64,000 nt of DNA from Phoenix dactylifera (lineage: Eukaryota; Streptophyta; Magnoliopsida; Arecales; Arecaceae): NCBI RefSeq assembly GCF_009389715.1, contig NC_052394.1:20958899-21022898 (forward strand), given 5' to 3'. The notes under the pieces were generated by a model. The model was not told the DNA's origin. It saw only the letters and a list, made by a program, of their open reading frames with translations, and searched no databases. A program made the translations under genes and the position numbers. Positions 6,101 to 62,140 of this stretch are shown in pieces (positions within the stretch are counted from its first letter, which is position 1; every line of letters starts with the position of its first letter).

Positions 6101-7263
6101 TAGTTTTAACATTGCCACCAAGAAATTATTATGTCTTAAACTACCTCTACATCCTCTCCTCTTAAGCCTACCTTTCAATCAGGGCATATCAACACTGCAA
6201 TCAACAGGTAGCATGCAGAGAAATGATAAGTAGATTTACATTCTATAGTATATACAAATAAGCACCTAAGACTAACATTTTTAACATAACACGATCAAAG
6301 AACACGTTTATGGAATAGTTGGCACAAATCTGGCTCTATAACATCAAACTTTCAAGAAAAATACAAAGAATTTGATCCACCAACATCATCATATTCCATA
6401 AGCTGCTTTAGTATTTAACATGCAAATGGAAAAATAGAATAACGGAACAAGAATATTCTTACCTCATCCACTGATCTTGAACGCTCCTTCCCAGCCGGAA
6501 CTTTCATGTCAATCAACGGCTGCTCCTTCTCCTTCTCGCTGATCAATCTCTCCACCAGACCCAGCTTCCTCTTCTTCCTGCATACATTCCATAGCTTCTT
6601 GTCCCGGACCTTCCACACGATCCCCTTCCTAAAGATGAGCTTCTCCGACTTCCAACCTGGGGAGCTCGTGTCGATAACCGTCACCTCCGTCTTCGAATAC
6701 GTCGACAAATCCGACTCGACAGGACTTCCTGCCGTCCCACGCTTCCTTCTCGCCTTCGTCCGGCTCTTCTTGGCCTCCGCCACGCTGTTCTCAGCGCTCG
6801 ACGGCGAAGTCGCCGGAGTAACGTGGCAAGCCGCCGGCGCACCGGCCAAGAAGTTGCCACCGATGCTCGCTGAGACGGAGGGGACGCAGGCCTTAGGGTT
6901 GGGCTGCTTCCGGGAGCTCTTCTTGCTCGCCCTTAGGGTTCCGGGGGCGGGGCGGTCCCCCATGACGAAGAGCTCCGCCAAGGCGGAGCTCATCAGATCG
7001 AAGATCTGCTCCTTCTCGCCGGCAGTTTTGCTCCCCGAGGCGGAGACCGGCGGCGGCGGATGCTGCTTCCGCCGCGCACAGGAGGGCCGAGTCTCGGAAG
7101 GAGGAGGAGGAGGAAAGCAAGAATTGGAGTTGGGGTCCGGGTTAGGGTTGGAGGAGAGGAAGTGGTCGAGATCGAGGTCGGCGGGGATGGAGAAGCCTTT
7201 GGAGGTGTGGAGGCGATCGAGCCAGTTGGAGCTCGACCTCGAGGTCGAGATCGAGCACAGCAT
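170..7263 (-). CDS. Unrecognised basic nuclear-type protein, two visible exons
   Basis: Exons 7263-6463 and 244-170 encode about 291 residues. I start at the ATG at 7263 (context AAAATGC); an in-frame extension upstream is low-complexity leader. Exon 1 ends GATGAG then GTAAG. The last exon follows TTACAG and reads in phase to a TAA at 172-170, ending in QIQIPMRK. The N-terminus is Ser/Pro-rich. The middle has a Lys/Arg-rich block (KKSRTKARRKRG). The C-terminal third holds the best conserved-looking segment, EKLIFRKGIVWKVRDKKLW followed by CRKKRKLGLVERLI, which suggests nuclear localisation. I do not recognise the family, so no function is assigned. Further small exons could hide in the 6.2-kb intron. 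Exon 1 is GC-rich and clearly coding; the distal exon rests on splice signals and phase only. Confidence 0.66.
4349..4527 (+). other. Nuclear plastid DNA (NUPT): 4.5S-5S rRNA spacer
   Basis: The segment starts at gatcaattcgatcaggcact and runs through a tract containing caaaagctctgccctccc, then ggtcaagaattgggcccc, to agtcaatatgc. From memory this matches the spacer just downstream of plastid 4.5S rRNA, before 5S rRNA, in rrn-operon orientation. The 4.5S gene itself is absent. Small differences from the plastid sequence I remember suggest an old transfer. Borders are approximate. Confidence 0.72.
5690..5905 (+). mobile_element. Decayed RTE-type LINE 3' end
   Basis: Near 5875 the sequence gtcgaccccaaatagttg matches the characteristic 3'-terminal motif of plant RTE LINEs (GCCGACCCCAA.TAGTT..). 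The preceding 180 bases, read in one frame with several stops, resemble the last part of the RTE reverse transcriptase, which ends in ...VADPN (here NKVDPN). The 5' part is missing, as expected for a truncated insertion. The assignment rests on the short 3' motif. Confidence 0.42.
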
Positions 7264-10182: not shown

Positions 10183-11459
10183 CTGTGATGCCAACAAAAC
10201 AATCTTAATGAGATTTGAAGAAAGAATTTGATGAAATATGTGAGAATAAAGTTGGAAGCAAATGTGCAAAATAATCAGCAAGGGACAGAAAACATTCCAA
10301 CATGGAGCCACAGCCAAGAAATTGTATATCAACAGAAGAAGCGTTTAAAGCTAACTCGGCAATTAACATCTAAAACCAACATCAAGCAAAGAAAAAGGAA
10401 GAACGAGGGCTATAGTATCAAATTTCAGAATTCCCAGATTCTGCAGGATACATTTATCACAACAGCCTTCCCCATCTATCTGAATGCAAAGTTCTTTCTA
10501 TCAGATAAATGATGGGAATACAAACTAAACTAGATAAGTCCATTTGCATCCAGCTGAACAGGCATCAAATTCCCCAACTGGTACAGCGTTGCCGGACATA
10601 CGACAGGAATCATGTAGTTCACATCAAGCCACCTGAACAGGAAGTTTTTGTGTTATTACTTGTCAGTAACGTAGACTAACTCATAAATAAGTGCTGCATG
10701 TGTGTGTGCATGTGTGGGTTGAGCTTCCTCTTTCAGGATGAAGAAAATTCTAAATCTATTCTAAAGTAGAATAGCTCAGCCACCAGAGACTACATGATCA
10801 ACCAACCATTCCTAGCCTAGATTACTCTCCCACAGAGAAATCAATAGAGTTCGATATACGGTATCCAACTTCTCGGAATAGCATATCCTAAAGTGACGAA
10901 TACTAAATTAATCTTGTTTCCCAATCGAAAGAAATCCACACATTAACAAACCCTAATCCTTCTCAATCAACTAAACAGCAAACGAAAACCAAAACCAAAA
11001 AAAACTAGCAATCTAATCTACCAGAATAGCCGCCAAATTAATATATATTGTATTTGAACAAAAAAATCTCAACCAACCTTCCAAGATCCAAACTTTTTTC
11101 TCAAATAATAACAATAACCATAGTAACAACAAGAACAACATAGAATAAACCACTTAGATTAAGAATCAACTCGAGGGGGATAAAGAATTAAAGCGTGGTA
11201 GCCCACCATGGATCGGAGAAACTTCTCCCGCGAATCAAGATAATTGGAAACTAGGAAGGATGGAACCAGGGGGAAAAGATTGGACTGGAAATTATTGCAA
11301 CTGGGACGCGAAGAACCAGCTTGGCGCCAACGCATATTGCGCAGCCGCTTCTGGCGAGTTCGAGAAGTTTCCACCATTGGGGGGCAGGCGCTTTATTTTA
11401 TTTTATTGTTTCCAAAAAAACAAGTACGTCATAGATTGCTTGAACGAATACAACAGGTA
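10183..11459. other. Upstream flank of MTP1 pseudogene
   Basis: Probably the former 5' untranslated region and promoter of the minus-strand pseudogene. A GC-richer block at 11200-11390 could be an old first non-coding exon (live MTP1 genes usually have an intron in the 5' UTR). No coding sequence seen. Confidence 0.4.
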
Positions 11460-12256
11460 GGGCTCGTTTGGTTCGCGGGAAGCATTTTCCCTCCTAGAAA
11501 TATGATTTCTAGGAAACAAATTCCTAGGAAGAGGATGCCTAGAAAAATACTTTTGGCATGTTTGGTTGACCATGAAAAAGTGACAAATTTCCAAAGTGCT
11601 TATGTTTGGTTGGCCATCCACTTTCCTAGGGAAGTTATGTATAATTCCTATTATGCCCTTAATAAAAATTAGGTTTTTAATGTCTCTTTAATGCTTCTTT
11701 AATGCTGAAGGGACTTTTTGGAAAAAAGTAAAAATGGAATAATTCCTGCCTCATGGGAAAGTAACTTTCCCATGTTTCTCATGGGAAAGACTTTCCCATG
11801 AAGGGCTCGTTTGGTTCGCGGGAAAAGAAGGGGGGAAAGTGTGGTCAACGGGAAAGTAATGAGATGCCTCTTGTTTGGTTGGAGTTTTCAAAGGAGAGAG
11901 AAGGGAAAGTTGTATTCCCATGGGAATGTGATTCCCATATTTCATGGGAAAGTCTTTCCCATGAGAAACATGGGAAAGTTACTTTCCCATGAGGCGGGAA
12001 TCACTCCATTTTTACTTTTTCCCAAAACGTCCCTTCAGCATTAAAGAAGCATTAAAGAGGCATTAAAAAACTAATTTTTATTAAGGGCATAATAGGAATT
12101 ATATATAACTTTCCTAGGAAAGTGGATGGCCAACCAAACATAAGCACCTTGGAAATTTGTCACTTTCCCATGGTCAACCAAACATGCCAAAAGTACTTTC
12201 CTAGGCATCCTCTTCCTAGGAATTTGTTTCCCAGGAATCATATTCTAAGTAATTTG
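11460..12256. mobile_element. Foldback (long inverted repeat) MITE-like element
   Basis: Two arms of about 300 bp, near 11491-11799 and 11945-12256, are inverted copies of each other; for example tatgcccttaataaaaatta on the left pairs with taatttttattaagggcata on the right. The left end begins gggctcgtttggttcgcggg, and the same 20-mer occurs again at 11803 inside the loop, suggesting a nested or dimeric insertion. A matching terminal sequence is missing on the right, so that end is truncated or diverged. Apparent open frames here are repeats, not genes. Confidence 0.75.
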
Positions 12257-13293: not shown

Positions 13294-16200
13294 TTGTGAC
13301 AACAAAAAGCGTCTCATCGTTCCATAATTAGAAATTAGTGGGACAGCTGGCATCTGAGGCTGATTCTTTGCTCGTAATTTCAAATTATTTAAGACCTAAC
13401 GTGGATCCGTCGGACTAAAGGTAACTTTCTTTGTGGTTTCTTTTAATTGGATTTATTAGCCATGGCAAATGGATGGATCTTTCCCCATGCTCAAATACAA
13501 TATTTGCAGAGGGTATCTTCTAATCATTATCCTCCACTACTCACCATGGAGATAGAATTCGAAGTGAAGTCACATTTCCGTAAACAAAGAGTTTCTGCTC
13601 TATTTTATGTTTTATCTATTAAATTACACATGGTCATGATAATATTTACCCCACCCCAAGCTGATCAACATTTTAATACTTGGCTCTCCGCATTAGCAAA
13701 ATATCACTAACAACTTCACGGGGGGAATACTGGAATAAGAGAGATGTATTCCAAGAAGTATAGTCGAGCGGAATCCATATTGAGTGGTGAAATATCCTAT
13801 TCCTAGAGAGTATAGAAGAAAAGGTCTAAAGATCGTGAAGCACCGAAAGGATCCGCCGGAAGCCACGACCCATCTAAATCACCCACTTTATTTGAGCTCC
13901 GGCATGATAAGCGACGCACGAAATTGGATATCGATGTTTCGAGATGCAATGTGAAATTCATTCAGATTGAAAAGCGTGTGGATTTGATTTCCCATATTAA
14001 TTTCTTGCTTGCATCAATCTGAGTTCTTTCTTTCAATTTCTTATATTTTATAACTCTTTTAGTCTGACTAATGCTATGCAATAAAATGAAGAAAGAAGGT
14101 TGTGTCTAAAATGCCAACATTGTTCATCGATGCCACCAACCTAACTTAAAAATTTTCAATGTAGAATAGTGCCTAGCCCAAAATAAAAAGGCCTAAGAAT
14201 CAAACATTAACTGGCTCACGGTATTTTAAAAATATAGTTATCAAATAATAAATATTTTTTTATTAAAAGCTCTAACCTTTCTCACTCTCTTCCGCATGTG
14301 AATAACATTTGTTACCTTATCTTACCGGAAAGTATAAATCCCATATCTTTCCTTCCTGGAAAGTCAAGGAAAAGCCTTACCAGAAAGTCAAAGATCCCCT
14401 ATTTCATTCTCCCGAAAAACGAAGGTCAAAATCCCTCTCTTTCTCATTCCGGGGAAGACCACTTTTATCGTATATAAACAACTAGCACTTTCCTTCCCTG
14501 ACTCGCTCGGACACCTCGCTCAAACACCTACTTCCAGATTAGATGGACGTTACCCCCTGCCCCCTTGAGGGATATCCGGTCTTCAACTGGACCTGTCACC
14601 TGGGAATTGGACGTTACCCCCTGCCCCCTCGGGGGATTTACTTATTCGCGCACTCCAACAATGCCAAATAAGCTCTAAGTCAGGTTCAATCTTTACGGTG
14701 CTAATTGTCCACTTGAATAAATTCGTCGCTTGAATTGGAAGCATTTCTTGAAAAATCATGCATTATGTCAATTATTTCGATGCCTAATAGACCAACCATA
14801 TATTTTCAATCAAACAAGTACCCAACAAAGAGCACTATATGACACCATATAACATTGCTCATTCAGAAGGACAACAAAATTAATTAATAAAACTTTTCAC
14901 CAAAAGGAACCATTTTTCATTTATTAATAAGCTAAATAGTGCTACATGTTTTACTTATCCATAAGCTGCATAATGTAACGGTATAATCAGCACTCTGGCA
15001 CTATAAAAGTCGGTCGATCATCGCCAGATTTAGTCTCTGGTCTGCAGAGTCAACACCAACCTTTTTGCCTCCCTTGAAAACTTGTCTCCATAAGGTGGCG
15101 GGCATCGAGAATCGTGCCTCAGATTTGGGTTCAGGAACTTGTCTCCATCGAGAGGTTCCGCCTTTGTTTTTATTTTTATTATTTTTTGTATTTTTTTATC
15201 TTTTTTAGAGCGGATGAATTCGTACGAGTATAAATGTATCCAATAAAATTAAAAAATAAAATGCCATGAAGTACCCGAGGCACCTCATCATTTTTATTTT
15301 TAGCCTACATGATACTCTCAAAGTGATTGATCATGTAAGCAATGTGCTAGGCATGAAGGGTCGTGCCCCATATTTGGGTGCAGGCCAATGTTGTCATCTT
15401 TGGAGACTTGTTACCATTGTGGAGTGGCCCAGAGGTCGGATGGGGTCAGAGTATTCAATGGTTGTCACAATTTGAGTAGCATTAGTGTCTTCTCCTGTTC
15501 TATTGTACACCAAGATAGAAAAAAAATCGAAGCTATTATATTGTCAAAAATACAAGCTCAATGTTTCTCATCTCCCTACTTTTTTTTTCTTTTCATGCAA
15601 TTAATTTGTATATGAACAGTTTTCAAGCCTACCATCATGTTCTTCCTAAAAGATAATTATTAGAACTTATTGTAGAATGACTAGTGAAGCAATTAGCTTC
15701 TTGAAATAGGGATTACTGGTTTCCATGCACTAGAATTATTAAAATATTTTATATTATAATATGTTTTCATAAAAGTTTCATCCTTTCTCTTCAATAAAAA
15801 TATAACAAATGAATACTTTCATTTTATTTTTTACGATATTTTCAAAATTATTTTATTTAAAAAATTGAAAATATTAACAATTTCAATATATTTTTGCATT
15901 TGCATATAATATTTTCTTACATGTTCTTTAATACATCTAGTTTCATTTATGCTGAAATTTAAAACTAAAAGCAGTATTTAATATATATATATATATTAAT
16001 ATTTTTACATGATATATTTTATTTAAATAATTTATAGTTTTTAATATAAAATCTAATAGAATCCGAGACTCTTAGTTCAATCAACCTTATGCATCCTTAT
16101 TTTGAATCGTAATTAATGTATTCTCTTAATGGAATAATCTTAATTGATGGAGAGGCCAAGATCCTCGAACGAACAAGAATATGCCAATCAAAAGATATTT

Positions 16201-16500
16201 TCAATTGCTAGAAAGAATAAAAACAAGCTACAAGCCGATATCTAGCAATTTATCGTACATGCAGCGCAAGATGTTATTTTTTGCTATTCTTTAAAATGCT
16301 ACTAAAATTTAGCGAATTCTATGATTTTTTATAGTGGCACTTTAAATCAAACCGGTGCCAGGTATAGGTAAAACTAAATATACCATCAAAAATTAGATTA
16401 TTTATCAATAATAAAAGAAAAAAGAAATTAAAGCAAGTTTCCTTTATTCATAAGCTAGTTATTGCCAACGTGCTTCCTTTCATCCATAACCATGCAAGGT
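13294..16500. other. Intergenic, repeat-rich, no gene recognised
   Basis: AT-rich DNA with islands of higher GC at 13730-13980, 14300-14660 and 15000-15180. At 14544 and 14609 the 18-mer gacgttaccccctgcccc is repeated directly, about 65 bp apart. A TATA-like tatataaa occurs near 14470. These could be parts of an old retroelement terminal repeat, but no partner copy is present. No coding sequence seen. Confidence 0.4.
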
Positions 16501-17372
16501 TCAGCAATGGGGCATCGTGCAAGGTGGCAGACCCTCATTTGGTGGAGGGCGTTTAGGGCGGCGAGGGTGGAGCCCCAACCTCGGTGGGCCCACGCTTGGA
16601 TTTGGGTCAGAATGGTACACGCGGTTCGCCGCCATCACATCCGCCGGTAGACTATGTGGGGGTTTGTGTAGCTGCGGGGGAGGATCCCCAGTATAATCGT
16701 GAACAGTGTCTGTGATTCGAGACCTGTCTCCATCATGACCGTCGCCTGAGCTGGGTAGTGAGCCAACATCGCCGGCATGTGCCTTCGTATCTTCTCCTGT
16801 TCAGGAGAATAGAGAAAGTTAAAGAAATAAATAAAAAAACGACATCTCTAGCAAATATCTTTATTATATAAACAATAAGGAGATAGATGGATAGAAAAAA
16901 AAGGGGTTAAAAACATAAATAAATAAATAAATAATGATCAAGGACAATACAAAGAAATGAGTCCAAAATTTTTTAGGGTTCAGAAAGCTTGAGCACACTA
17001 CTTTAACGCCAACAAAATTTTAAATCAAACATCGAGGCCTTTAGTCTCTTGATGGATCTCGGTCTATGGATAGTTAAAAGTCTTGAATACACAAAAATAT
17101 CATAGAGATACGGAGACTAGCAAATATTTTATATGCATCACTGTAAATCTAATATTGTCAAATTAGTGATTAAAATATTAAAATTTTGGAGGGTTATCTC
17201 GCTGTGTAATCCAGATTCTTTTCATCATCGTCGTCATCAACAACAACAATAATAATAATGAAATAACTAGATTACCTAAAACTGGAAGGAGTCTCGTAGC
17301 AGAACAGATTGAAATGTCGGAGAAGAACAGGAGAAGCCACCAAACACCAACAGAGCACAACTTGGATCTCAT
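16501..17372 (-). CDS. Putative small secreted proline-rich peptide precursor (CIF-like motif)
   Basis: Two exons, 17372-17276 and 16796-16501, encode 130 residues. Exon 1 is a signal peptide: MRSKLC, hydrophobic VGVWWLLLFF, then CSATRLLPVL, a plausible cleavage region. It ends TTTTAG then GTAATC. The 479-bp intron ends in a T-rich tract and GAACAG, and the split Gly codon keeps phase. Exon 2 has an acidic variable region (residues 34-63), then HDYTGDPPPQLHKPPHSLP at 65-83, then a basic proline-rich tail with two Cys ending TMPHC. The DY...P.P.L.KPP..LP pattern resembles the tyrosine-sulfated CIF peptides that signal through GSO/SGN3 receptor kinases; these usually lie at the very C-terminus, whereas here 47 residues follow. 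A TATA box lies 62 bp upstream of the ATG. Gene status is well supported by structure; family is an inference. Confidence 0.6.
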
Positions 17373-17433
17373 CCCTAACCTCAGCTCTAGCCTTTTGAAC
17401 TTGGTTATTGATAAAAAGAGGGCATCCTCACGT

Positions 17434-17445
17434 CTCTATATAAAG
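17434..17445 (-). promoter_or_regulatory. TATA box of the secreted-peptide gene
   Basis: On the minus strand this reads CTTTATATAGAG, centred about 67 bp upstream of the ATG at 17372. That spacing leaves room for a short 5' leader of about 35 bases. Confidence 0.6.
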
Positions 17446-17910
17446 AACCGACGGTATCAGGCCATTTAAGGACATTAATTATTGGATAGATTGGTGACAA
17501 GATCGATTGTTTCTCTCATGGAAAGATTTGTGGATGCTGAGATATAACTAACGGATATGATTCAAAACTCTCGCTCGATGCCGAGATACATTGGACAGGA
17601 TTTAAAATGCTCCAACTAAATGTGTCCTCTTTTGGAAAGTAAGGACGGGTTTGAGTTGAGAGTATTAATGGGTTACCTTCCAGAAGGCCCGTGTTTAACA
17701 TTTAATATTAGAGGAGACGAATAAAAATATGGTTGCTATTTTAGTGATTAGTCAATACTTATTTAATACCTATAACGTGCATATCACGTGCCAGGTAGGG
17801 TGCAATCATATAAGGACACGTGTTGGGTGCAGATAAAATCTTTCACCATATCTGCAATTCCTTATAATTTTCTCCCGAGGAGGCGAGAGGAAGGCGGAGA
17901 GAGGAAAAAG

Positions 17911-20417
17911 ATGGTCGCATCCCTCCATCTCTGCGGACTCCAATCTTTCTCCCCTCTCCTTGCTCGTCCTTCTCCCAAATTTTCCCCCTCTTTTTCCTCT
18001 TCTTTACCTTCTTCTTCTTTCGCTCTTCTTTGCCGCGCAGCGTCCCTGCGCTCCTTCTCCTCCTCTTCCAGGCGCCGCCCGTCCGCCGCCGCGGCCGCCG
18101 CCGCTCCCTTCGTCGTCTCTGCCGCCCTCGGGAAGCTCTCAGAGACCGAGCTCGTCCCTGTCCCCAAGGGGCCCGAGGGCTTGGATGGCAAGTTCCCCTC
18201 CGCCGCGGGCGTCTACGGGGTCTACGATGGCGACGGCGGCCTCCAGTTCATCGGGATCTCTCGGAACGTCGCGGCCAGCGTCGCCGCCCACGCCAAGTCG
18301 GTCCCCGACCTCTGCCGCGCCGTAAAGGTTTATAATTACGAGTTCCTTTTCAAAAGTTTATATATAATTACACATGCAACATAGACATAGACAACAAACT
18401 CGATAGCAGATACTTCCTATCTAATCAAAAATATTCTTAAAAAAAGTCATTTAAAATTTTCTGTACTTAGTTTTTTGTGAATTTTTCTTCATCTTTGCTT
18501 ACCCCCCTCAACTTGTCTTTGGGGCTGTCCTCCCAAAATTCTTCTCAGATAGTTCACTCTCGTTTTGCCATGTACTAGTCCTGCTCTTAACCTTTGATTA
18601 ATATAATTAATCCTTTTGGTTGTAACGTCCATTCATTTAATCTTAAATGTTTAACAAAATCATCTAATGTGCATGGGGTATGGGCCGTACCCAAAACTCA
18701 TGCATACAATAATTCGTGGCTGAACTAGTTTATATGATTTTCCTATTACTGTTGGCAGTCAGCGATCACAAAAAATACTAGGACTGTTTCTCCATTATAT
18801 TCTCTTGCATTAATCTTATTGAATACATTGTAATCTTAGCACTCTGTGGAAGAATTTAGATTCATAAGTAGTGAAATCTATTTGTCTGAACAACTAATTT
18901 GGCCATCAAATCTAATTACAATTTTGCCTCATATTTTACTTCCACCCTCCAAGTTGCACTATGTATACCTTTTTGTGGTCCCACTAATTTCGATGCCTAT
19001 ATGTTTAAAAGTTTCTCTGCACATTTCTAGGTTCTCTTGTCTGCGATGCATTCCGCTGTATTTGAACCATATCCTGAATGAAGGCCTAATTTCTCTTTAT
19101 ATTACTGAAACTAGCTTCCTTTCCAAAACATTGTGCGCTCTTGACTTTATAAAATATAATTCTAATCACCTTGGAGTTCTCAAGAATGACTATTGGTGAT
19201 GGAGATGCTCATCAAATTCTTTTAGTTTCCTAGCTAGACAAACTATTGAATGAAATGTGGCTTATATCTACACACACACACACTAACATATTATATCCTT
19301 AAATAAAACTATGGATGGAAGGAAGGGATTTTTCTTTTTTTTATTTAGACATACTGCATTGTCTTAATTTGATTCAAATCTCTTCATGCTGAAGATAGTA
19401 CAATTCATAAGTTTTACCTGACAGAGCTTTTGTTTGATACTATTTTATGTGATATGGTTGTGAAATGTTCTTAATGTTTACTTTGCTGATTAAATTGCAT
19501 TTTTGATTTCCAAAAGCATCGTCTAAGAGTGTTCTTAATTGAATCAAGAATATTGAATATTAATACTTCTATCTGTATATCTTGGTAGTTTCATCCATTT
19601 TTTATATCACAGCAGAGTGGACTTGGCTATGATGAAGGGAATTAGGGGCATGAATTGAACATCATAAGGATTGCTTTTGTGTCCATTCTATGCAGTTGCA
19701 ACGTATCACTGTGTGAATTTAATGAATTCTGTGGTTGAAAATGTCAAAGCCTTGAAATCTTTAAATAACAAGAAATGGACAAAAATGGCACTCAAACTTA
19801 CTAGCTTAAGCTAAAGATCTATTTTCCAGGCATGCACCAGTGAGCACAAATTTGATGTAGGATCATTATCCACAATATGTTACTCAGATCTCTGCACCTT
19901 ATCCTTGTAGGTGGGGCTAGTAGATGAAGCTGCACCTGATCGGACAGTGCTGACCAATGCCTGGAAATCATGGATGGAAGAGCACATCGCAGCCACTGGG
20001 AAAGTCCCTCCAGGCAATGAAACTGGAAATAACACTTGGTTCCGCTTGCCTCAGAAGAAACCAGACTTGCGTTTGACACCTGGTCGCCATGTTAAGCTCA
20101 CAGTCCCACTGCAGGAGCTAATTGATCGACTGGTTAAGGAGAACAAGGTTGTTGCATTCATCAAAGGATCAAGGAGCGCTCCACAATGTGGCTTCTCAAA
20201 GAGGGTGGTGGGGATATTGGAGTCCCATGGTGTGGATTTTGAGTGTGTGGATGTTCTTGATGAGGAGTACAACTATGAGTTGAGGGAGACGCTGAAAAAG
20301 TACAGCAACTGGCCAACTTTTCCTCAAGTTTTTGTTGGAGGGGAGCTTGTGGGAGGATGTGATATTATTTACTCCATGGCAGAGAAAGGGGAGCTTGCTG
20401 CACTGTTCCAGAAGTAG
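17911..20417 (+). CDS. GRXS16: Monothiol glutaredoxin S16, chloroplastic (CGFS type)
   Basis: Exons 17911-18327 and 19911-20417 (both phase 0 at the junction) give 307 residues. Residues 1 to about 65 are a Ser/Arg/Ala-rich plastid transit peptide. About 80-160 form the GIY-YIG-like N-terminal domain ([20 protein letters not shown]) unique to this glutaredoxin class. The C-terminal glutaredoxin domain (about 205-307) carries the single-cysteine active site CGFS at 232-235, plus [14 protein letters not shown] for glutathione binding. CGFS glutaredoxins bind and transfer 2Fe-2S clusters in the plastid stroma; the N-terminal domain of the Arabidopsis protein has reported endonuclease activity. 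The start ATG follows a purine-rich leader and opens the transit peptide. Exon 1 is very GC-rich, exon 2 is not, a typical monocot gradient. All key residues are present, so it looks functional. Confidence 0.95.
18328..19910 (+). other. GRXS16 intron
   Basis: GT at 18328 and AG at 19909-19910. AT-rich, includes a short (CA)n run near 19270. No gene or clear transposon seen inside. Confidence 0.85.
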
Positions 20418-22641: not shown

Positions 22642-23933
22642 GGCCCTGTTTGGGAGAGCTGTTGGCAGTAGAGCTGGTGGAAGTAGAGCTGTTGAAAGTA
22701 GAGCTGTCTGAAGTAGAGCTGTTATAAAAAGCTGTTTGCTGTTTGGTAACTACATTCGTAAAGTGCTGTGATACTTTGTTTTGTGTTTGGTAAACAAACT
22801 GAGAAAGTACTTTTGTATGACAAAATTACCATAAAGGACATTACATAGTATTATACAACAGAACATAATAAAACATAACATAAATTAATACATAAATATA
22901 CGATATAGTATAATATTATTGTAATATAAAATAATATTATGTTAATATAGCATAATAGTAATATAATTATTAAAGTAAATTAATATTTGGTAATATAACA
23001 TAATATTAAATTATTTAACATAACATATTAATGTATTATAATATACTGTAATATATAGTATATTTATAGTATAATACAATAATAAAAGTATAAAATATTA
23101 TAATTATTAGTATAAATTAATTTCTCATAATATAACATAATATTAAATTATTTAAAATAGCATATTAATGTATTATAATGTAATGTAATATAATATAATA
23201 TTTATAGTATAATACAATAATAAAGGTATAAAATATTATAATTATTAGTATAAATTAATTTTTCATAATATAACATAATATTAAATTATTTAACATAACA
23301 TATTAATGTATTATGATATAATATAATATGATATTATATTTATAGTATAATACAAAAATAAAGGTATAAAATATTATAATTATTAGTATAAATTAATTTT
23401 CCATAATATAACATAATATTAAATTATTTAATATAACATATTAATGTATTATGATATAATATAATATGATATTATACTTATAGTATAATACAAAAATAAA
23501 GGTATAAAATATTAAAAAATAATAGATTGATTTTGGAAGGTACGGAGAAGGATTAAAATTTTTTTCTTCTAAAATGTGGTTCAAGAGATGCATACAAAAA
23601 TTGAAAAGAAAAATACCTTTTCTTATGGAAGGGAGTCTGATGGCTAGGGTTCTTGGCTCCAGCAGATTTTTAGGTTTATAAAGGGACAAGCTATGTAATT
23701 ATTATATTTTAATATGGACATTTTTGTCAAAAATACAGCTTTCCGAAAAAGCTGAAACAACTTCCTTCCAAAAGCTTCAAATTGGAGCTTCCTTCCAAAA
23801 GCTATTTTCAGCTTCCCGCAAAAGCTGAAACAGCTTTTTGAAAAATTTACCAAACACAGTTTTTTATCTAAAAGTACTTTTGGAGGGCCAAAAAGTGCTT
23901 TCTGGCCCTCCAAAAGCTCTTCCAAACAGGGCC
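22642..23933. mobile_element. Non-autonomous PIF/Harbinger-like DNA transposon, copy 1
   Basis: Terminal inverted repeats start ggccctgtttggga and end tccaaacagggcc, flanked by a 3-bp TTA target duplication (22639-22641 and 23934-23936). TTA duplications and GGxCCTGTTTGG termini are typical of Tourist/PIF-Harbinger elements. Subterminal regions are rich in motifs such as agtagagctg on the left and its kin on the right. There is no transposase frame. The core is a 138-bp AT-rich tandem repeat. A second copy lies at 53957-55838. Confidence 0.82.
22990..23520. repeat. 138-bp AT-rich tandem array, about 4 units
   Basis: The marker aaaggtataaaatatta (or aaaagtataaaatatta) recurs at 23084, 23222, 23360 and 23498, an exact 138-bp spacing. 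Units share attattagtataaattaatt and catattaatgtattat blocks. The same array occurs with nine units in the second element copy. Confidence 0.9.
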
Positions 23934-36039: not shown

Positions 36040-37394
36040 GAAATGTCATGCTCAATCATTTTATTTTTGCCCCAATTTTCTGAAGGATTTTGAGTCATTT
36101 CTGAAGAGCTAGTTATGATGGTCGGATCTGTTCAGAAGCTGTCTCCTTGAGCAGATTTACTGTACTTCCAGCCTGATGTGTGATCGACAAAAACGTTTGT
36201 TTTAAGTACAACTATGGCTATATGTTCTAAGTTCTGAATAATTTTGTAGGGGGAAAATAGTCTGTTATTTGTTCCTTCCATGTAATGATTATATGATTAT
36301 TTGATTCTTGGGCAGATGTAATTTATTTCCAGCCAGGCTCGGAGCATGAGCAGCACAGTTTCTCTTGTATCTTGACATGGCTATGGATGTAGGGGAGTTT
36401 GTTTAAATTCAGCAGAATATACGTTGTACTATTTTTAATTTCCATGCGTGCTATTTGCTATGCTGATTTGAATGTTGATTTGGGTGAAGTTGGGACAAAA
36501 TGATGTACCATATGTGATTTCTTTGCATGCTCCTCTGCTATGCTATCTCCCTTTTGTCTTCACAAAATCATGAATGCTCCGGAAGAATGTGCGCATCGAG
36601 ATGGGCTCTTTTATTTTTATGGAAGCACTCTTTATCTATAATGACATGCTTGCATCAGTACCTTCTATTAGCATATGGCTGATGTAGGCCAGCTACATTG
36701 GACTACGTTGTGATAATGTTTCCTTCTGGATGTCGCATGTTCGAGTCCCTTGGTTTTCCTTTTTTTTTTCTTCCTTCGAAGGTTTAAATAGCAAATTGTA
36801 GCAACCTGCATGAACATTTCCATTGTTACTTCAAATAAATTAAGAAGTTCGAGTTAGGTGCATATTCTTTGTCATGAACATGTAAGATTTGAAAGTTCAT
36901 CACAACTTCAACATAATTAGATAATAATAATCTCAATTCATAATATTTGATTGGTATCATTAATGTTCTATCTACTTATTCTTTCCCTTATGATTCCAAT
37001 TGTAGCCAACTACGCATCCTGTAACTTTGAAAAGGTAAAATGAAAGATGTGGTGTGACTTTTACAGTCTAGTAAAAATTTCCTACCTCACGTCGATATAG
37101 ATGAAGTAAATTTAAAATAAAGAATAGCTATAAACAATACCAGAATACGGGCAAAAATTATAAAATTTCATAGTGACTATTCAACACAGCTAAAATAAAT
37201 CCACATAGATATGTACACATAAATATACATCCCTAAATATCCATCTCATTTAAGAAAATATATTACATATATCAATCTTTCGTATAATAATAATTACATG
37301 TCTCATCTTTCGTTCCATCCAAACTCACTCCGCTTATTCTCTTCCTCATCTTCCTCCCTTCATCTCTTCCCCACCCCCCACCAACTCCCCCTCA
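36040..37394. other. ZNHIT3 3' flank and AT-rich intergenic DNA
   Basis: About the first 400 bases are probably 3' UTR. The rest is AT-rich with no gene or recognisable element. Confidence 0.5.
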
Positions 37395-38416
37395 CCAAAC
37401 TCCATCACGCTCCACTCGATAAGGAATGCCATCGACGAGGTCGAGAAGGCCACCGCCATCATGTCGAATCTTGTCGGCGCAGTCAATGGCTCTCGCCTCG
37501 GCCATGCCATCAACGACTGCTTGCAGCTCCTCCAACTCTCATCCGACGAGCTCCACTGGGCCCTCGGGTCGGTCTCGGGCAACGGTAGCATCACCGCGCG
37601 CAGCAAGGCCAATGTGGTCGCATGGCTTACCGCCGCCCTCACCAATCAGGACACCTGCCTCCGAGGGCTCCTCGAGGTCGCCGATTTCTTCGAGCTGATC
37701 TATGAGCAATGCGTGAAGATGGTGGAGGCTTCGATCGAGAGGGCTCCAACTGATTCTAGCAACATCAGCATCGTAGCTGACGATGCCATGGCATCATTGC
37801 ATGGACTCATCGAATCCCCTGTGAATGGGACTGGCGTTGACGTCGTAGTTGCGACCGACGGCAACCGGAACTTCACAACCATAACAGAGGCGGTCAGGTC
37901 TGCACCCGACTACAGCGACAAGCGCTACGTGATCTACGGGAAGAAAGGCATATACGAGGAACATGTCGTGGTGCCGAGGCAGAAGAAGAATCTGATGATA
38001 CTTGGAGATTCGATGTTCGACACGATCATCACCGGCAATCGCAGAAACTATGATGGTTGGTCCACCTTTGGATCTGCTTCGTTTGGTGAGAGCTCTACTC
38101 TACTCTTCTCTTTGTATTAAACTAAACTCCACCGATTCGATTCTTTAGCCTGTTTAAACTCGGGACAGCAATTACCATCATTGTTCTAATCTATGGCATG
38201 TTGTAGCACTACCGATCGTGCAGCTGTGAGCGCTCCAGGATTCATAGCCCAGAACATTAGATTCGAGAACACGGCAGGAGCCGGGAAGCACCGGGCTCGG
38301 CTACCGCTGCGCCTTCAAGGGCTATGAAGGCGCAGCGGTATATCATCAGCAACGCCGCCGCCGCCGCCGTCTTCCAGGACAGCGTCATCCTCGGGCGCAA
38401 GCCCATGGACAATCAG
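37395..38416 (+). pseudogene. Pectinesterase/pectinesterase-inhibitor pseudogene (5' part)
   Basis: From 37395 one frame reads NSITLHSIRNAIDEVEKA and on into an inhibitor-like (PMEI) domain (INDCLQLLQLSSDELHWAL, with WLTAALTNQDTCLRG), then the start of the pectinesterase domain ([50 protein letters not shown]). No starting Met or signal peptide precedes the frame. After a short break near 38100-38210 come FIAQNIRFENTAGAGKH and then YRCAFKGY joined directly to sequence like the later FGNAAAVFQ region. The central catalytic part (the QDTLY segment and the DFIFG Asp) is deleted, and nothing follows MDNQ at 38416. Live enzymes de-esterify cell-wall pectin; this copy cannot. Confidence 0.85.
38304..38338. 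repeat. Perfect 14-bp inverted repeat at the pectinesterase deletion point
   Basis: ccgctgcgccttca (38304-38317), loop agggcta, tgaaggcgcagcgg (38325-38338). It sits where the catalytic segment of the pectinesterase reading frame is missing. Confidence 0.9.
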
Positions 38417-53956: not shown

Positions 53957-55838
53957 GGCCCTATTTGGGGGAGCTGTGGGCAGTAGAGTTGTTGGAAGTA
54001 GAGCTGTTAGAAGTAGAACTGTCTGAAGTAGAGCTGTTATAAAAAGTTATTTGCTGTTTGGTAACTACATTTGTAAAGTGCTATGGCACTTTAATATATG
54101 TTTGATAAACAAACTAAGAAAGTACTTTTGTAAGACAAAATTATCATAAAGGACATTGCATAGTATTATACAACAGAATATAATAAAACATAACATATAT
54201 TAATGCATAAATATATGATATAGTATAATATTATTGTAATATACAATAATATTATTATAATATAGCATAATAGTAATATAATTATTAGAGTAAATTAATT
54301 TTTGATAATATAACATATTAATATATTATGATGTAATATAATATAATATAATATTTATAGTATAATACAATAATAAAAGTATAAAATATTTTAATTATTA
54401 GTATAAATTAATTTTCCATAATATAACATAATATTAAATTATTTAAAATAATATATTAATGTATTATGATATAACATATTATGATATTATATTTATATAT
54501 AATACAATAATAAAGGTATAAAATATTAGAATTATTAGTATAAATTAATTTCTCATAATATAACATATTATTAAATTATTTAACATAACATATTAATGTA
54601 TTATGATATAACATATTATAATATTATATTTATAGTATAATAGAATAATAAAGGTATAAAATATTATAACTATTAGTATAAATTAATTTTTCATAATATA
54701 ACATAATATTAAATTATTTAAAATAACATATTAATGTATTATGATATAATGTATTATGATATTATATTTATATATAATACTATAATATTGGTATAAAATA
54801 TTATAATTATTAGTACAAATTAATTTTTATAATCTAACATAATATTAAATTATTTAAAATAACATATTAATGTATTATGATGTAATGTAATATACTATAA
54901 TATTTATAGTATAATACAATAATAAAGGTATAAAATATTATAATTATTAGTATAAATTAATTTCTCATAATATAACATAATATTAAATTATTTAACATAA
55001 CATATTAATGTATTATGATATAATGTATTATACTATTATATTTATAGTATAAAATAATAATAAAGGTATAAAATATTATAATTATTAGTATAAATTAATT
55101 TTTCATAATATAACATAATATTAAATTATTTAAAATAACATATTAACGTATTATTATGTAATTAATATAATATAATATTTATAGTATAATATAATAATAA
55201 AGGTATAAAATATTATAATTATTAGCATAAATTAATTTTTCATAATATGACATAATATTAAATTATTTAACATAACATATTAATGTATTATGATATAAGG
55301 TATTATAATATTATATTTATAGTATAATACAATAATAAAGGTATAAAATATTATAATTATTGGTATAAATTAATTTTTCATAATATAACATAATAATAAA
55401 TTATTTAAAATAACATATTATTGTATTATGATGTAATGTAATATAACAATATTTATAGTATAATACAATAATAAAGGTATAAAATATTTTAATTATTAGT
55501 GTAAATTAATTTTTCATCATTCGAATGACCATTTATCTCTCTAACAATTTTTCTTGCGGAAGGAAATCTGACGGCTAAGGTTCTTGGCTCCAGCAGATTT
55601 TTAGGTTTATAAAGGAACAAACTATGTAATTATTATATTTTAATATGGGCATTTTTGTCAAAAATACAGCTTTCCGACAAAGCTGAAAACGGCATTTTCG
55701 GAAAGCTCTAAATTGGAGCTTTCCCCCAACAGCTGTTTTCAGCTTTCCGCAAAAGCTGAAACAACTTTTCGGAAATTTTACAAAACACCATTTTTTATCT
55801 AAAAGTATTTTTGGAGGGCTAGAAAGTGCTTTTTGGCC
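53957..55838. mobile_element. Non-autonomous PIF/Harbinger-like element, copy 2
   Basis: The left end ggccctatttgggggagct matches copy 1 (22642-23933), as do the subterminal agtagagctgtt repeats and the right subterminal block (gcttccgcaaaagctgaaac-like). It is longer (1.88 kb) because its 138-bp array has nine units. The last ~24 bp of the right terminus present in copy 1 are missing, and no target duplication is visible (taa left, ttg right), so it is 3'-truncated. No coding capacity. Confidence 0.8.
54290..55515. repeat. 138-bp AT-rich tandem array, nine units
   Basis: The marker aaaggtataaaatatt recurs at about 54375, 54512, 54650, 54788, 54924, 55062, 55199, 55337 and 55473, spacing 136-138 bp. 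Units share attattagtataaattaatt and catattaatgtattatgat blocks. Same monomer as at 22990-23520. Confidence 0.9.
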
Positions 55839-57160: not shown

Positions 57161-60100
57161 TCAACTTTCTGGGATGTTTTCGGACTTCTGCAGGTGTTCA
57201 AATTGGTGGCAGTCAACTCCAACTTCCTTAAATGCCATGATCAGCCTGGGCAAAATTTTTGCTAGTGTAAGCTTGAAACCGACTGAACAAGAATGCTCCC
57301 TGCTTTTCTCAGTCATGCAAGCATCCTTTGTGAGGGAACCGATGACACAGCCTTCCATGTATGCTTCACAACTTTTAAGAATATAATGACCACGCCTTCG
57401 GAAATGGTCCTTGACGAACTCTTCAAAATGCTAGTCCATCACAGTTAGGGAAAAAAAAAAGAAAGAGATCATAAAAAACTAATAGATAATACATTTTATA
57501 TTCAAGTAAGATCATATAAGTACTTGTTCAAAGAAATACTAATGACAGTAGAAAATAACATCAAAGAATTTCTCACAAAAAAAATGATAAAGAAACTCAA
57601 AGTTACAAGAATGTAGTCAATTTTTCATTATCAAGTATTTGTCAGATGGTAATATGAGATTAAATGAGCCACAACATATTGCACTTAGAGCCAAAAGCCT
57701 GTGAATAGTCATTACCGGAAACAACATCATAATAACAGCATGGAGCTAAACATGCAGGAAGAATAAGATATGGCTGCAATATGCTTGTGAAATTTCTCCA
57801 AACATGCCTGAATCATGTTTTTAGTCTCAACATCAAATTGAAGTGATAATAATCAATCATAATATAGCTTAAATTAAGTCGAGTATTTCAAACAAGTCAT
57901 GGAAAATACAGTTGATTTTTTTAATCACCTAAAGCAAGTAAAATATCCTGATATAAAAATGCTCAAATTTATCATCATGAAACAAGAAAGAGCACCAGTG
58001 AGAAAGCAAAAATAAAATCAACCAGAAGTAAAACCTGACATAAGTTTGATATAGATCAAAAAAGAAATATGATAACATATTATTTGTTTTACCATGGGAG
58101 GTCTTCTCAGCAGATACAACATCGTTTTCAAGTTTAGCAAGTAAGTATTCTCATTGTAGGGTAAAGAATTCTTCTCTCCTTCAACAGTCCCAACCTGCTT
58201 CTCATACCCTGCTTCATTGAAATATGGTTTAGAATTGAGAACCAGGCCCTGGAGTGAAACTAGGACTTGAAGGATGCTCGAGGACGATGGGTCCCAAACT
58301 TCATTTCCTTTGCCAGTCCATGTATTTAAAAGGCTTAAGCAAACCTTCCCATCCACATATAAATTTGGATTTACACGCAAACCACCAGAATGATAGTACG
58401 CTGACTGCAGGGTTGAGAAGAAGTATTAGAAGCAAGTGAAAAGCAATTTGAAATTTGAACAGGTTCACCTTTGATGTATTTTAGCCAGATACTTGGTGAG
58501 AGCTAACCACTATTCAACATGAGTATCAGAGAATAAAATAATATGGTTCTATTTACCGGTGGAACTTGAGGGTAATCTGGTGGAAGGTGAAAGTCAAAGA
58601 AGAAAAGGCCGTCTTGGTAAGGTGTTCCACATGCTCCAATAATTACAGCTCTTACGAGATCCATACGATCCTCATAAACTCTGACATAAATAGCATCTGT
58701 AATCACAATAAAGAATTAGATCTTCACAACATAAAAGTATATTCATTTACAAGTTTTTGGATGAGTGACAATTTTACATGACTTACCTGGTAGGTTCTTT
58801 TCAAGGATGCTCCATTCTTGTTGAACCTTTTTCACCCACTTTCTTCCACCAGTGCTCTGTAACTTAGTTTTGTTAGCCTAATATATGTTGGGGCATTTAC
58901 TACCTATACCTTAACCAACAATACTTATCACATCTGTAATTCTATATGAAAATATGTTCAAAGATGCAAGATAAATGAAAGTCCTGCATGCAACAGATGT
59001 GATTGTATGCTTAAAGAAGAAAAGGTGCAATTAACTTAAAAAATGAATAGTTTGAAAATGAGAAAAGCATCTAGAACAGGAGTTTGTGCTACCTGTCCAG
59101 TCCCACCAAGGAAATGATGGTCCAATGGGTTTTGAGCAATATCAAAGTGTTTGAAGCTATGAGGATCATCAGATGTGGAGCTATCTGGAACATCCTCCAT
59201 TTTTTCCTCAGCATCTTCTGCTGTTGCTGTCTGACTATGTACCTCAGCAACCTTGTGCACATTTTGCACAACATCAAGGGCTTCAGATTTTTCGTAGCTG
59301 GCCTCATAATTGGTTTCTTTCTCTGAAACCTCGAGAATCTCATCAGATTCAGATTCATTTTCAATCATGTGATCTAAACCTGATGGATCTGATTGTTTTC
59401 TACCACGAGAAAACAATCCAGTGGCCAGTCTAGTGACATAGCCAAGAGCAGCTAGAGGCATTGAAAGTGGCCCATTTCGTCCAGCATTATTATCCTCTTC
59501 GGAAGTTATAGTGCTAGTTTCCCTTTCAACGAAATTATCAACACGACCTTGCGAATCAACTTCCTGAACATAATGGTTTTACACTTTTACGGATCATAGA
59601 TATAGTCAATACTAAAAAAAAGCCTGGCAATAAAACTAATGATATGTGAATTAACCTTTTCAGTATTGTCGTGTGTATCCATTTCATTTTCATCAACTGT
59701 TTCCCAACTAGCGCCATCATCACTAACTTCACTTCCACCATCAAATGAGTCTCCATCATCTTCTCTACCAACAACATAGATTGCTTGAGGTCCAACCTAA
59801 AATAACAGGTGAAGAATGTAATAACAAGTTTCTGATGACTAGGATGAAAGCAAATTTAAGGGAAAGATGTAGCATATTGATAGCTTGCACCACAATAAGA
59901 TATCTAACGTATCCAAATGGTGCAAACTTTTAGTACTAGCAGTCGTACAAAACATGTCAATGTAAGTATAACTACCTATTCCCCATAATATGGCAGATAT
60001 ATACCTTTGAGACAGTCCCATCAGCCCACTGAACTTCAATATCGCCATCTTCAAGACCAATTATATTTCCTACCCATGTACATGCAAAATTTGAAGAATC

Positions 60101-62140
60101 TTCATCCTTTGGGACCTGCTCTGCTTCATCATTCTCCCTGCTACCATCACCTTCAGTTTCCACTGGATCAGCATGTTGTTCTTGTTTCTCCACATGACCT
60201 TCAATATTGATTGTATCACCAGAAGTTGAAACTGGGGGCAAGCGAACAACCACATCCCCATAGCAATAATCATAATCTGGATGCCCATCAAGTTCATATG
60301 CACTCACCACTTCATCACAATCAAACTCCCGCAGCTCTTCAGGCCTGGAAACAGGCTTAAGCCACCTCACACATGCTGTTCGCTCCCTTGAGTTCACACT
60401 TCTTACAACACCCACGCGTTTTGTTTCAGAAGAATAATCTCCTTCATTCGAGGCCTTCTCCACCACATATTGTTCAGGAAAGAATTCATGATCATTTGGA
60501 CTGTGAATTGGAATCAAAGAAGTTGACTCCAACCCAAATTCTCTAGTTCCATCTTGCCATGCCACATCAACCTTTGTCATGGTATTTACAATGAAAAGAG
60601 CTCTTTCAAATGTCTCGTTTCTTTTATGACTCTTCTTGTCTCGCTTAAATAAGACTTTCCGCAGCTTTTTGCGGTATGCAGGCCAACTTTCATGACTGGG
60701 TTCCTTTGAAACTGATGATGAAGTACTGCAAGAGCAACATTCTGGCAAAGCATTTGACTCTGTTCCAGTATTTACACCTAAGTTATTCATCTTATCAAGA
60801 ACCACTGGATTGTTATACTGGGGCTGGGAATTTCCTTCTATATTTTCGGTTGTCTTGGTGTTTTCACAATATCCATCTCCCACATGCTCAGAAGCTGACT
60901 GAAGGTTAAGCACATCCAAACTAGCTACCTGACTAGACTCGACAGTTTCATCCTGAAATGATGCTGCTTGTGCTGGAACATCTGTTCCTGAGTCTTCTTT
61001 ACCGGCTTTTGAAGTATCATCAACCGAGGATGATGGCTGTGGAGGTGATGGAAGGAGACACCAGTCAGCTAATTGCCAATTTGCATATGAAAAACAGGAT
61101 AACAGAATTAAGTTTTCTGGATTCTGCTCTTCAGCAGGAACAGTTGCTGAATCAGTACCAATACCAAGGTAAGCTGAAGCTATCCAATAGACAACCACAG
61201 AAGCTGTCTGAATTTTAACGACAGTACCTTCAAGACGGTTAGCTTTCCATAAGCCAGAAATCCATCTAGAAGTTTTGAAAACAGATGAGGAAACGGCCCT
61301 AACACGCTGACCTGGGTAGTATGGACAACTGGCATCATCAATGACTGGCTTTGTAACTGGCTTGAGACGCAAAGGATCAGCTTTCACAACTTTACAGACA
61401 GATCCATCATCAAACAACACAGTCACATTGTCTAAAACATCATCTACTCGACCAAGCCAAGGTCCAAATACTACAAAATCACCCACAGTGAATTCCCTTA
61501 TCCGTTTGAGATCTCTAGAAGACACATTCTTTATAATCTCTCCATTTGCTGTTAGTAGATCAACCATGATATTAACATCCAGAACAAGTCCCATTTGTCC
61601 TGTTGGATCTGAAGCAGAAGCAACCATATCACCATGCAAGAAGTTTCTATCAACAACTGTGATATCGCTAATATTCTCCATTGTTTCAGAACCATCAGTC
61701 CAAGTTACTCTGATCTGGCCATCTGGTAGAGAATCATTACTTTCACCACCATCTTCATTATCATTGTCATCATCACCAGCACCATCACCACCACCACCAC
61801 CACCACTGCCTCCACCGTTCCTATGTTCATCCTCCTCACTGTCACTGTCGTCTGTGATGCTGCCCTCAGAATCTGAGTCTCCAGCAACTTCCATCACAAC
61901 TCCGAGCAACCCTTCATTCTTTTTGCATCTGACAACATCTTGCCTATATACAAATGCCTCATTAGGCAGGCTTCCTGCAAGCTCTTTAGACTTAATTGCC
62001 TCCCCATTTTCAGAACTCTTCTCAACTACAGAGCCAGTACCATCCATTGCAAGTTCCATTGGATCCACCAAATTGTTCACTTCCACTGAATTAGTACATT
62101 TTGAAAGCCCATCACCAGCAAGATGCTGCTTAGTTTCCAT
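57161..62140 (-). CDS. UBC23: Ubiquitin-conjugating enzyme E2 23-like (UBE2O/PHO2 family)
   Basis: Seven coding exons, in phase throughout: 62140-60005, 59796-59656, 59563-59093, 58856-58787, 58696-58557, 58404-58093, 57430-57161; 1179 residues. The long N-terminal part has SH3-like/tudor-like repeats typical of UBE2O (QIRVTWTDGSETMENI, VTVLFDDGSVCKVVK, KVDVAWQDGTREFGL, DIEVQWADGTVSKV), with an acidic, Gly-rich linker at about 90-140. The E2 domain spans roughly 918-1080, with IYVRVYEDRMDLVRAVIIG and PYQDGLFFFDFHLPPDYPQ, and NPNLY...GKVC placing the active cysteine at 1008, followed by LSLLNTWTG. This family acts as a hybrid E2/E3. Its relative PHO2/UBC24 degrades phosphate transporters at endomembranes; the longer N-terminus and this E2 sequence fit UBC23 better. 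The ATG is preceded by TTCATCAG, a likely 5'-UTR intron acceptor. Confidence 0.93.

Follow-up and report, generated by a model that had tools for sequence, protein, structure and literature searches.

Does the interval 16501..17372 of the date palm (Phoenix dactylifera) DNA analysed here, a stretch of 64,000 nucleotides hereafter called the window, hold a gene, and does that gene encode the precursor of a secreted peptide hormone resembling the CIF peptides? CIF1 and CIF2, the CASPARIAN STRIP INTEGRITY FACTORS, are ligands of SGN3/GSO1. A preliminary description of the locus had read it as a CIF-like precursor with an unusual tail that could contain a second peptide. CIF-family homologues occur in monocots, for instance banana, Phalaenopsis and rice, according to one study (PMC11855783), and rice has CIF1a, CIF1b and CIF2 (PMC10827307). 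Among the PMC articles listed on CIF/TWS1-type peptides in monocots and palms, none deals with the window gene as far as titles and the first lines of abstracts indicate.

Results

Gene model and its expectation by chance

The gene model put forward in the preliminary description (TATA box, ATG, signal peptide, GT-AG intron and a product of 130 residues) was reproduced exactly. It lies on the minus strand and leads from the ATG at 17372 through a predicted signal peptide and a phase-1 intron to the stop at 16501 (Table 1). Hydropathy is the only criterion behind the signal peptide, which has the hydrophobic core VGVWWLLLFF and a cleavage site placed after ICSA by inspection. The product contains one DY followed by PPPQLHKPPHSLP, with 47 residues beyond that motif as previously stated, and 50 residues follow the PPH; the protein looks disordered. 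On the plus strand, each of the three frames is interrupted within exon 2, and GC at the third codon position is not raised (0.63, 0.54, 0.50).

Table 1. Features of the gene model in window coordinates.
Feature	Position	Strand	Remarks
TATA box (TATATA), 70 bases 5' of the ATG	17437..17442	-	Same sequence in the C4 copy
Exon 1 (97 nt): ATG and predicted signal peptide, phase-1 end	17276..17372	-	Same layout in the C4 copy
Intron, GT-AG, phase 1, 479 nt	16797..17275	-	Counterpart in the C4 copy of 475 nt
Exon 2: acidic spacer, DY block, proline-rich basic tail, stop	16501..16796	-	
DYTGDPPPQLHKPPH, candidate sulfated peptide, residues 66-80	16654..16698	-	From the sequence and its resemblance to CIF1/2; C-terminal end putative
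HSDPNPSVGPPRLGL block, residues 94-108	16570..16614	-	Identical in the C4 copy
AATAAA polyadenylation-type signal, 53 bases past the stop	16443..16448	-	AATGAA in the C4 copy

The window was scanned for a signal-peptide-like start, a donor, an acceptor and an exon of 90 residues or more in the right phase, taking the gene's own score as the hydropathy threshold. Four start codons qualified, namely the one at 17372, another at 36963 spliced to the open reading frame 37461-38120 (presumably pectinesterase-like), and two belonging to a single model at 60.3 kb. Among 60 block-wise Markov-resampled windows the mean was 0.05 qualifying starts, with any such start in two of them, and a model bearing DY..PP (exon of at least 60 residues) arose in none. 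Gene models of this kind are rare by chance, and the minus-strand model has the look of a real small gene of the palm that encodes a secreted protein.

A second copy on contig C4

The genome search covered 773,078,369 bases in 2391 contigs and consisted of two protein searches, in each of which 9 candidates were scored. It yielded one further complete copy in the date palm genome, at about 5,085,680-5,086,551 of contig C4, which retains the ATG, the phase-1 GT-AG intron, the frame and the stop and encodes 133 residues. The only exon indel between the two copies is an in-frame one of 9 bases, and the C4 copy has zero frame breaks relative to the window gene. A weak match on contig C17 (E 2.95), limited to the signal peptide, was dropped after its six frames had been viewed by eye.

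The collinearity extends over about 3.5 kb, with window 15122-18667 corresponding to C4 5,084,363-5,100,001 in five pieces; C4 carries additional sequence between the peptide gene and a fragment of the neighbouring gene, and also beyond that fragment. The neighbour, which we take to be GRXS16-like (a glutaredoxin), is complete in the window, while at C4 nothing beyond its first exon was recovered, and that exon has several gaps, one of them of 40 bases. Within one duplicated segment the glutaredoxin exon fragment is gapped whereas the peptide frame is intact. We read the pair as originating from a segmental duplication from C3, the contig of the window, to C4. Another gene of the window, presumably SufB-like, has a copy on contig C12 at a dS of 0.34, a pair that we infer to date from the whole-genome duplication; as the dS of the peptide genes is 0.13, the C3/C4 duplication looks younger than that event. 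The whole-genome duplication was set aside as the source of the peptide pair on account of these two values and of the short C4 collinearity. The gene at 59972-62140 proved unusable as a yardstick of divergence, having distant matches only (at most 45%; C4 at 8.5 Mb, and C11).

Within the 110 kb of C4 that were compared, window 6137-6883 and 11458-12245 match too. The former (747 bases, 91.3% to C4 5,099,999-5,100,717) adjoins the C4 match of window 18467-18667 and is either a repeat or an additional shared piece. The stretches at 22.6-23.9 and 53.9-55.8 kb share C4 targets and therefore belong to one repeat. A tandem array whose AT-rich unit measures about 138 bases (54306-55517, 8.8 copies, 91% matches) sits in a 2-kb stretch of 17.6% GC, and its flanks match 22.6-23.9 kb via the common C4 targets. 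Past the 3' end of the gene, window 15340-16129 (790 bases) is 91.7% identical to C4 at aligned positions, an exon-like level, and no gene was recognised in it.

A 243-base piece of the C4 copy, comprising exon 2 sequence and the adjoining end of the intron, is present at 99.6% identity on contigs C638 (about 23,320-23,545) and C1858 (about 950-1,174), where the rest of the gene is absent; it is apparently a recent capture or copy of an exon fragment. The two contigs share some 1.1 kb at 99.8% identity. In the 10 kb around the C638 fragment, repeats of at least 40 bases were limited to a single short family of direct repeats, and no inverted pair was present.

Selection between the two copies

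Neutral evolution of the frame was simulated in 20,000 runs with indel and substitution rates taken from 2051 aligned non-coding bases. The frame survived in 1.5% of the runs (P 0.015), the splice sites standing outside the simulation. Yet exons, intron and flanks have diverged equally, by about 10%, the identity between the copies being 0.907 in exon 1, 0.902 in exon 2, 0.898 in the intron and 0.896-0.920 in the flanks. The NG86 method gave a dN of 0.096, a dS of 0.130 and a dN/dS of 0.74, and maximum likelihood gave 0.106, 0.103 and about 1.0, respectively; 21 amino-acid changes are present against 24.9 expected neutrally (P 0.10). Together these values indicate that the frame has been kept under an amino-acid constraint that is weak or uneven.

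The DY block has changed more than any other part of the protein, with 8 changes falling within a run of 18 codons (permutation P 0.07), which is not usual for a mature hormone domain. The copies do not differ in the HSDPNPSVGPPRLGL block or in most of the tail; the tyrosine preceding HSDPNPSVGPPRLGL is N in the C4 copy. This block had been proposed as a possible second peptide; its identity in the two copies is expected with so few changes between them and is not significant by permutation, the longest identical run being 19 (P 0.51). Downstream of the stop, the AATAAA is not retained in the C4 copy.

The DY block and its likeness to CIF1/2

The DY block reads TVH-DYTGDPPPQLHKPPH-SLP in the window copy and TVL-DYSFDPPPWLPGPPH-GPP in the C4 copy, and the two have in common D, Y, DPPP, L, PPH and the final P. 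The mature peptide would begin at the DY, which is present in the sequence together with the signal-peptide-like start, and in both copies the histidine of PPH is available as the C-terminus of a peptide that cleavage would release.

Date palm has CIF1/2-type genes on contigs C4 (DYGRYDPAPALRKPPFKLIPN) and C15 (DYGSYDPSPSLSKPPFKLIPN), both with the peptide at the C-terminus. Like CIF1 and CIF2, the window gene has a predicted signal peptide, a phase-1 intron near its end and a DY, and the P.P.L..PP spacing of DYGRYDPAPALRKPPFKLIPN recurs in the window copy. It differs from them in the absence of the FKLIPN ending, in a candidate peptide that is not C-terminal, and in having two exons, with separate CIF genes elsewhere in the genome. 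As read by eye, the date-palm CIF genes have three exons, with a first intron in phase 1 where the signal peptide ends and a second in phase 0; on that reading the intron of the window gene agrees in phase with the first, and a phase-0 second intron is absent.

Fifteen peptides, the Arabidopsis ones taken from a table in PMC11534595, were aligned locally to the two products and compared with composition shuffles (30 comparisons, with P given per comparison). For the window copy P was 0.0007 and 0.0003 against the C4 and C15 CIFs, 0.003 against AtCIF1 and 0.02 against AtCIF2, and there was no resemblance to AtCIF3, AtCIF4 or TWS1 (P 0.47-0.90). The C4 copy gave 0.015 and 0.003 against the C4 and C15 CIFs, 0.40 against AtCIF1, 0.07 against AtCIF2 and 0.07-0.42 against AtCIF3, AtCIF4 and TWS1. 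Among 2617 six-frame segments the window copy was the top non-CIF match to both date-palm CIFs (scores 44 and 46, against 39 and 40 for the best unrelated segments) and to AtCIF1 (41 against 38), and for AtCIF2 two other non-CIF segments scored above it. The C4 copy came next after the window copy for the C15 CIF, at 42, and for the C4 CIF it ranked below two unrelated segments (37 against 39).

A CIF1/2-like end, ARYDPSPPLDKPPFKLIPN, lies on contig C6 at 405036-405079 with no DY in frame; it is probably a broken CIF gene besides the two intact ones.

Likeness to TWS1, CIF4 and other DY peptides

TWS1, CIF3 and CIF4 are ligands of GSO1/2. The precursors of CIF3, CIF4 and TWS1 have C-terminal extensions that are cleaved off, and CIF4 is cut between PGPVPH and GSL by SBT5.4 and TWS1 between PGPIEH and GTPLNP by ALE1 (PMC13082318). 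The tail of the window gene, described before as unusual, is less so in view of these extended precursors. The C4 copy matches the DYxF...PGPxH layout of TWS1 and CIF4 with the G that follows the cut (DYSFDPPPWLPGPPH, then G) and likewise has a C-terminal extension, while the window copy lacks the F, the PG and the G after H. Compared with TWS1, CIF3 and CIF4, the linker is shorter, and by eye the tail is unlike that of the TWS1-type gene of date palm on contig C6, whose last exon gives DYPRFDPVPSSRAAITAGPIEHGTPLMPYVP....

The pattern DY.F...PGP.HG, written post hoc, was met in 2 of 200,000 shuffles of the C4 exon-2 product; a scan of the window together with 18 loci located it nowhere but in the C4 copy and its two fragments. 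A looser DY...P(x)H, which the window copy has, is uninformative, since 5% of shuffles contain it and the DNA scanned has it at 12 places. A second comparison with TWS1 and CIF4 used softer gaps and longer, flanked queries against 2627 segments. In it the C4 copy was outscored against AtTWS1 only by the true TWS1-type gene (P 0.004); for AtCIF4 it reached P 0.035, with two unrelated segments scoring higher, and for the date palm TWS1-type gene P 0.07, with eight or more segments, unrelated or CIF, ranking above it. These scores of the C4 copy depend on the settings, with P 0.07-0.08 under stiff gaps and mature peptides. The window copy gave P 0.51-0.81 against TWS1 and CIF4 with the softer gaps. 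Two equal-scoring partial TWS1-like matches were seen on contig C15 (713972-714034 and 1375988-1376050; 71% over fragment residues 15-35).

With the RGF/GLV/CLEL peptides both copies have the DY start and PPH in common, and RGF5 gave a shuffle P of 0.02 for both; their HN ending (DY...PPxHN) is absent, a long tail standing instead, and four other members gave P of at least 0.07. With the PSY peptides the DY start and DP are in common, whereas the ANxxHDP core is absent and the shuffle P was 0.33-0.74 (PSY1, PSY2 and PSY5, both copies).

Searches for further relatives

Pfam returned no family, and Rfam no match in the window, from libraries that may hold little on plant peptides; the best phmmer hit in PDB (E 1.3) was not relevant. 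In collections with few or no plant genes, 6 pattern-matching stretches of viral contigs and 385 of prokaryote genome contigs gave no confirmed relative. The pattern DPNPxxGPP occurs at 4 places in the genome (none for the reversed control), of which two are the copies themselves and the others lie on contig C68; the latter are duplicated DNA with no related gene in their frames and were rejected as chance. A CIF3/4 pattern, DYGxWxPxP, had one place (control 1), the translation of which is not a CIF. PPFKLIP occurs at 7 places (control 3), comprising two intact CIF ends, one broken and four unrelated. DPxPxLxKPP occurs at 4 places (the window gene, both intact CIF genes and a CIF-like locus with an out-of-frame DY), which is not evidence because the control gave 5 and the pattern was partly derived from the window gene.

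Discussion

The earlier CIF-like reading of the locus stands in part. There is a gene for a small, presumably secreted protein and a DY..P.P.L..PP resemblance (shuffle P 0.0003-0.003, and 0.02 for AtCIF2), but the FKLIPN ending is absent, separate CIF1/2- and TWS1-type genes exist, and the DY block is the fastest-changing part. We do not call the product a CIF, for want of that ending; membership of the CIF hormone family is suggested by the resemblance. The two palm genes follow the general plan of precursors of DY-type sulfated peptides, and they bear a modest resemblance to both CIF branches and fit neither.

The best explanation, which we favour tentatively and as somewhat short of probable, is that this is a real lineage-specific gene encoding a small secreted pre-pro-protein, from which a DY-type, probably sulfated and fast-changing peptide is made that works like CIF and TWS1. 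In the proposed mechanism the signal peptide would direct the precursor into the secretory pathway, TPST would sulfate the tyrosine of the single DY, and prolines would be hydroxylated. Extracellular subtilases would free a peptide of about 15 residues, from the DY to the histidine of PPH (DYTGDPPPQLHKPPH in the window copy, DYSFDPPPWLPGPPH in the C4 copy), which would bind a GSO/SGN3-type leucine-rich-repeat receptor, as CIF and TWS1 peptides do, and could serve in the sealing of barriers. Since the greatest divergence lies in the presumed peptide, the copies may not be equally active, or they may be under relaxed constraint.

Alternatively, a real secreted-protein gene may act through its basic proline-rich tail (HSDPNPSVGPPRLGL...RRPKRPPPNEGLPPC.MPHC) or as a whole protein, for example in the cell wall or in defence, the look of a CIF being coincidental. 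We regard this as unlikely, though deserving serious consideration: the HSDPNPSVGPPRLGL block and most of the rest of the tail are unchanged, with the changes densest in the DY block, and the scores against the date-palm CIFs are only slightly above background (44-46 against 39-40). However, an identical run as long as that observed is expected with so few changes, and DY-DPPP-L-PPH is retained in both copies. A relaxed or dying gene, formerly coding and by now nearly neutral in its evolution in at least one of the copies, with no active peptide required from either, would account for the equality of coding and non-coding divergence, the dN/dS of 0.74 to about 1.0, an amino-acid change count not clearly below neutral and the piece of C4 exon 2 found without the remaining gene on C638 and C1858. 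Against it stand the start, splice sites, frame and stop, all intact in both copies, with a neutral frame survival of P 0.015, and we consider it a minor possibility.

The favoured reading of a DY-type peptide precursor can be taken further, to a palm-lineage pair of sulfated hormones with TWS1/CIF-like processing and a long basic tail, in which rapid divergence of the receptor-facing residues after the segmental duplication would have turned a single ancestor into one CIF1/2-like and one TWS1/CIF4-like ligand; in this specific form it is rather improbable. That there is no gene, the open frame and splice sites being due to chance, agrees with the third-position GC and with the lack of Pfam, PDB, Rfam, viral and prokaryote matches in collections with few or no plant genes, but is very improbable given the resampled windows (2 of 60 with any such model, none with DY..PP), the flanking TATA and AATAAA and the frame kept in the C4 copy.

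If the peptide is not made, the locus is a gene for a small secreted protein of unassigned use, or one under relaxed constraint. If the DY-type peptide is made, palms have an extra CIF/TWS1-like signal besides their ordinary CIF and TWS1-type genes, and, if this reading is true, the two fast-diverged duplicates would constitute a natural test of which residues from DY to H decide the choice of receptor.
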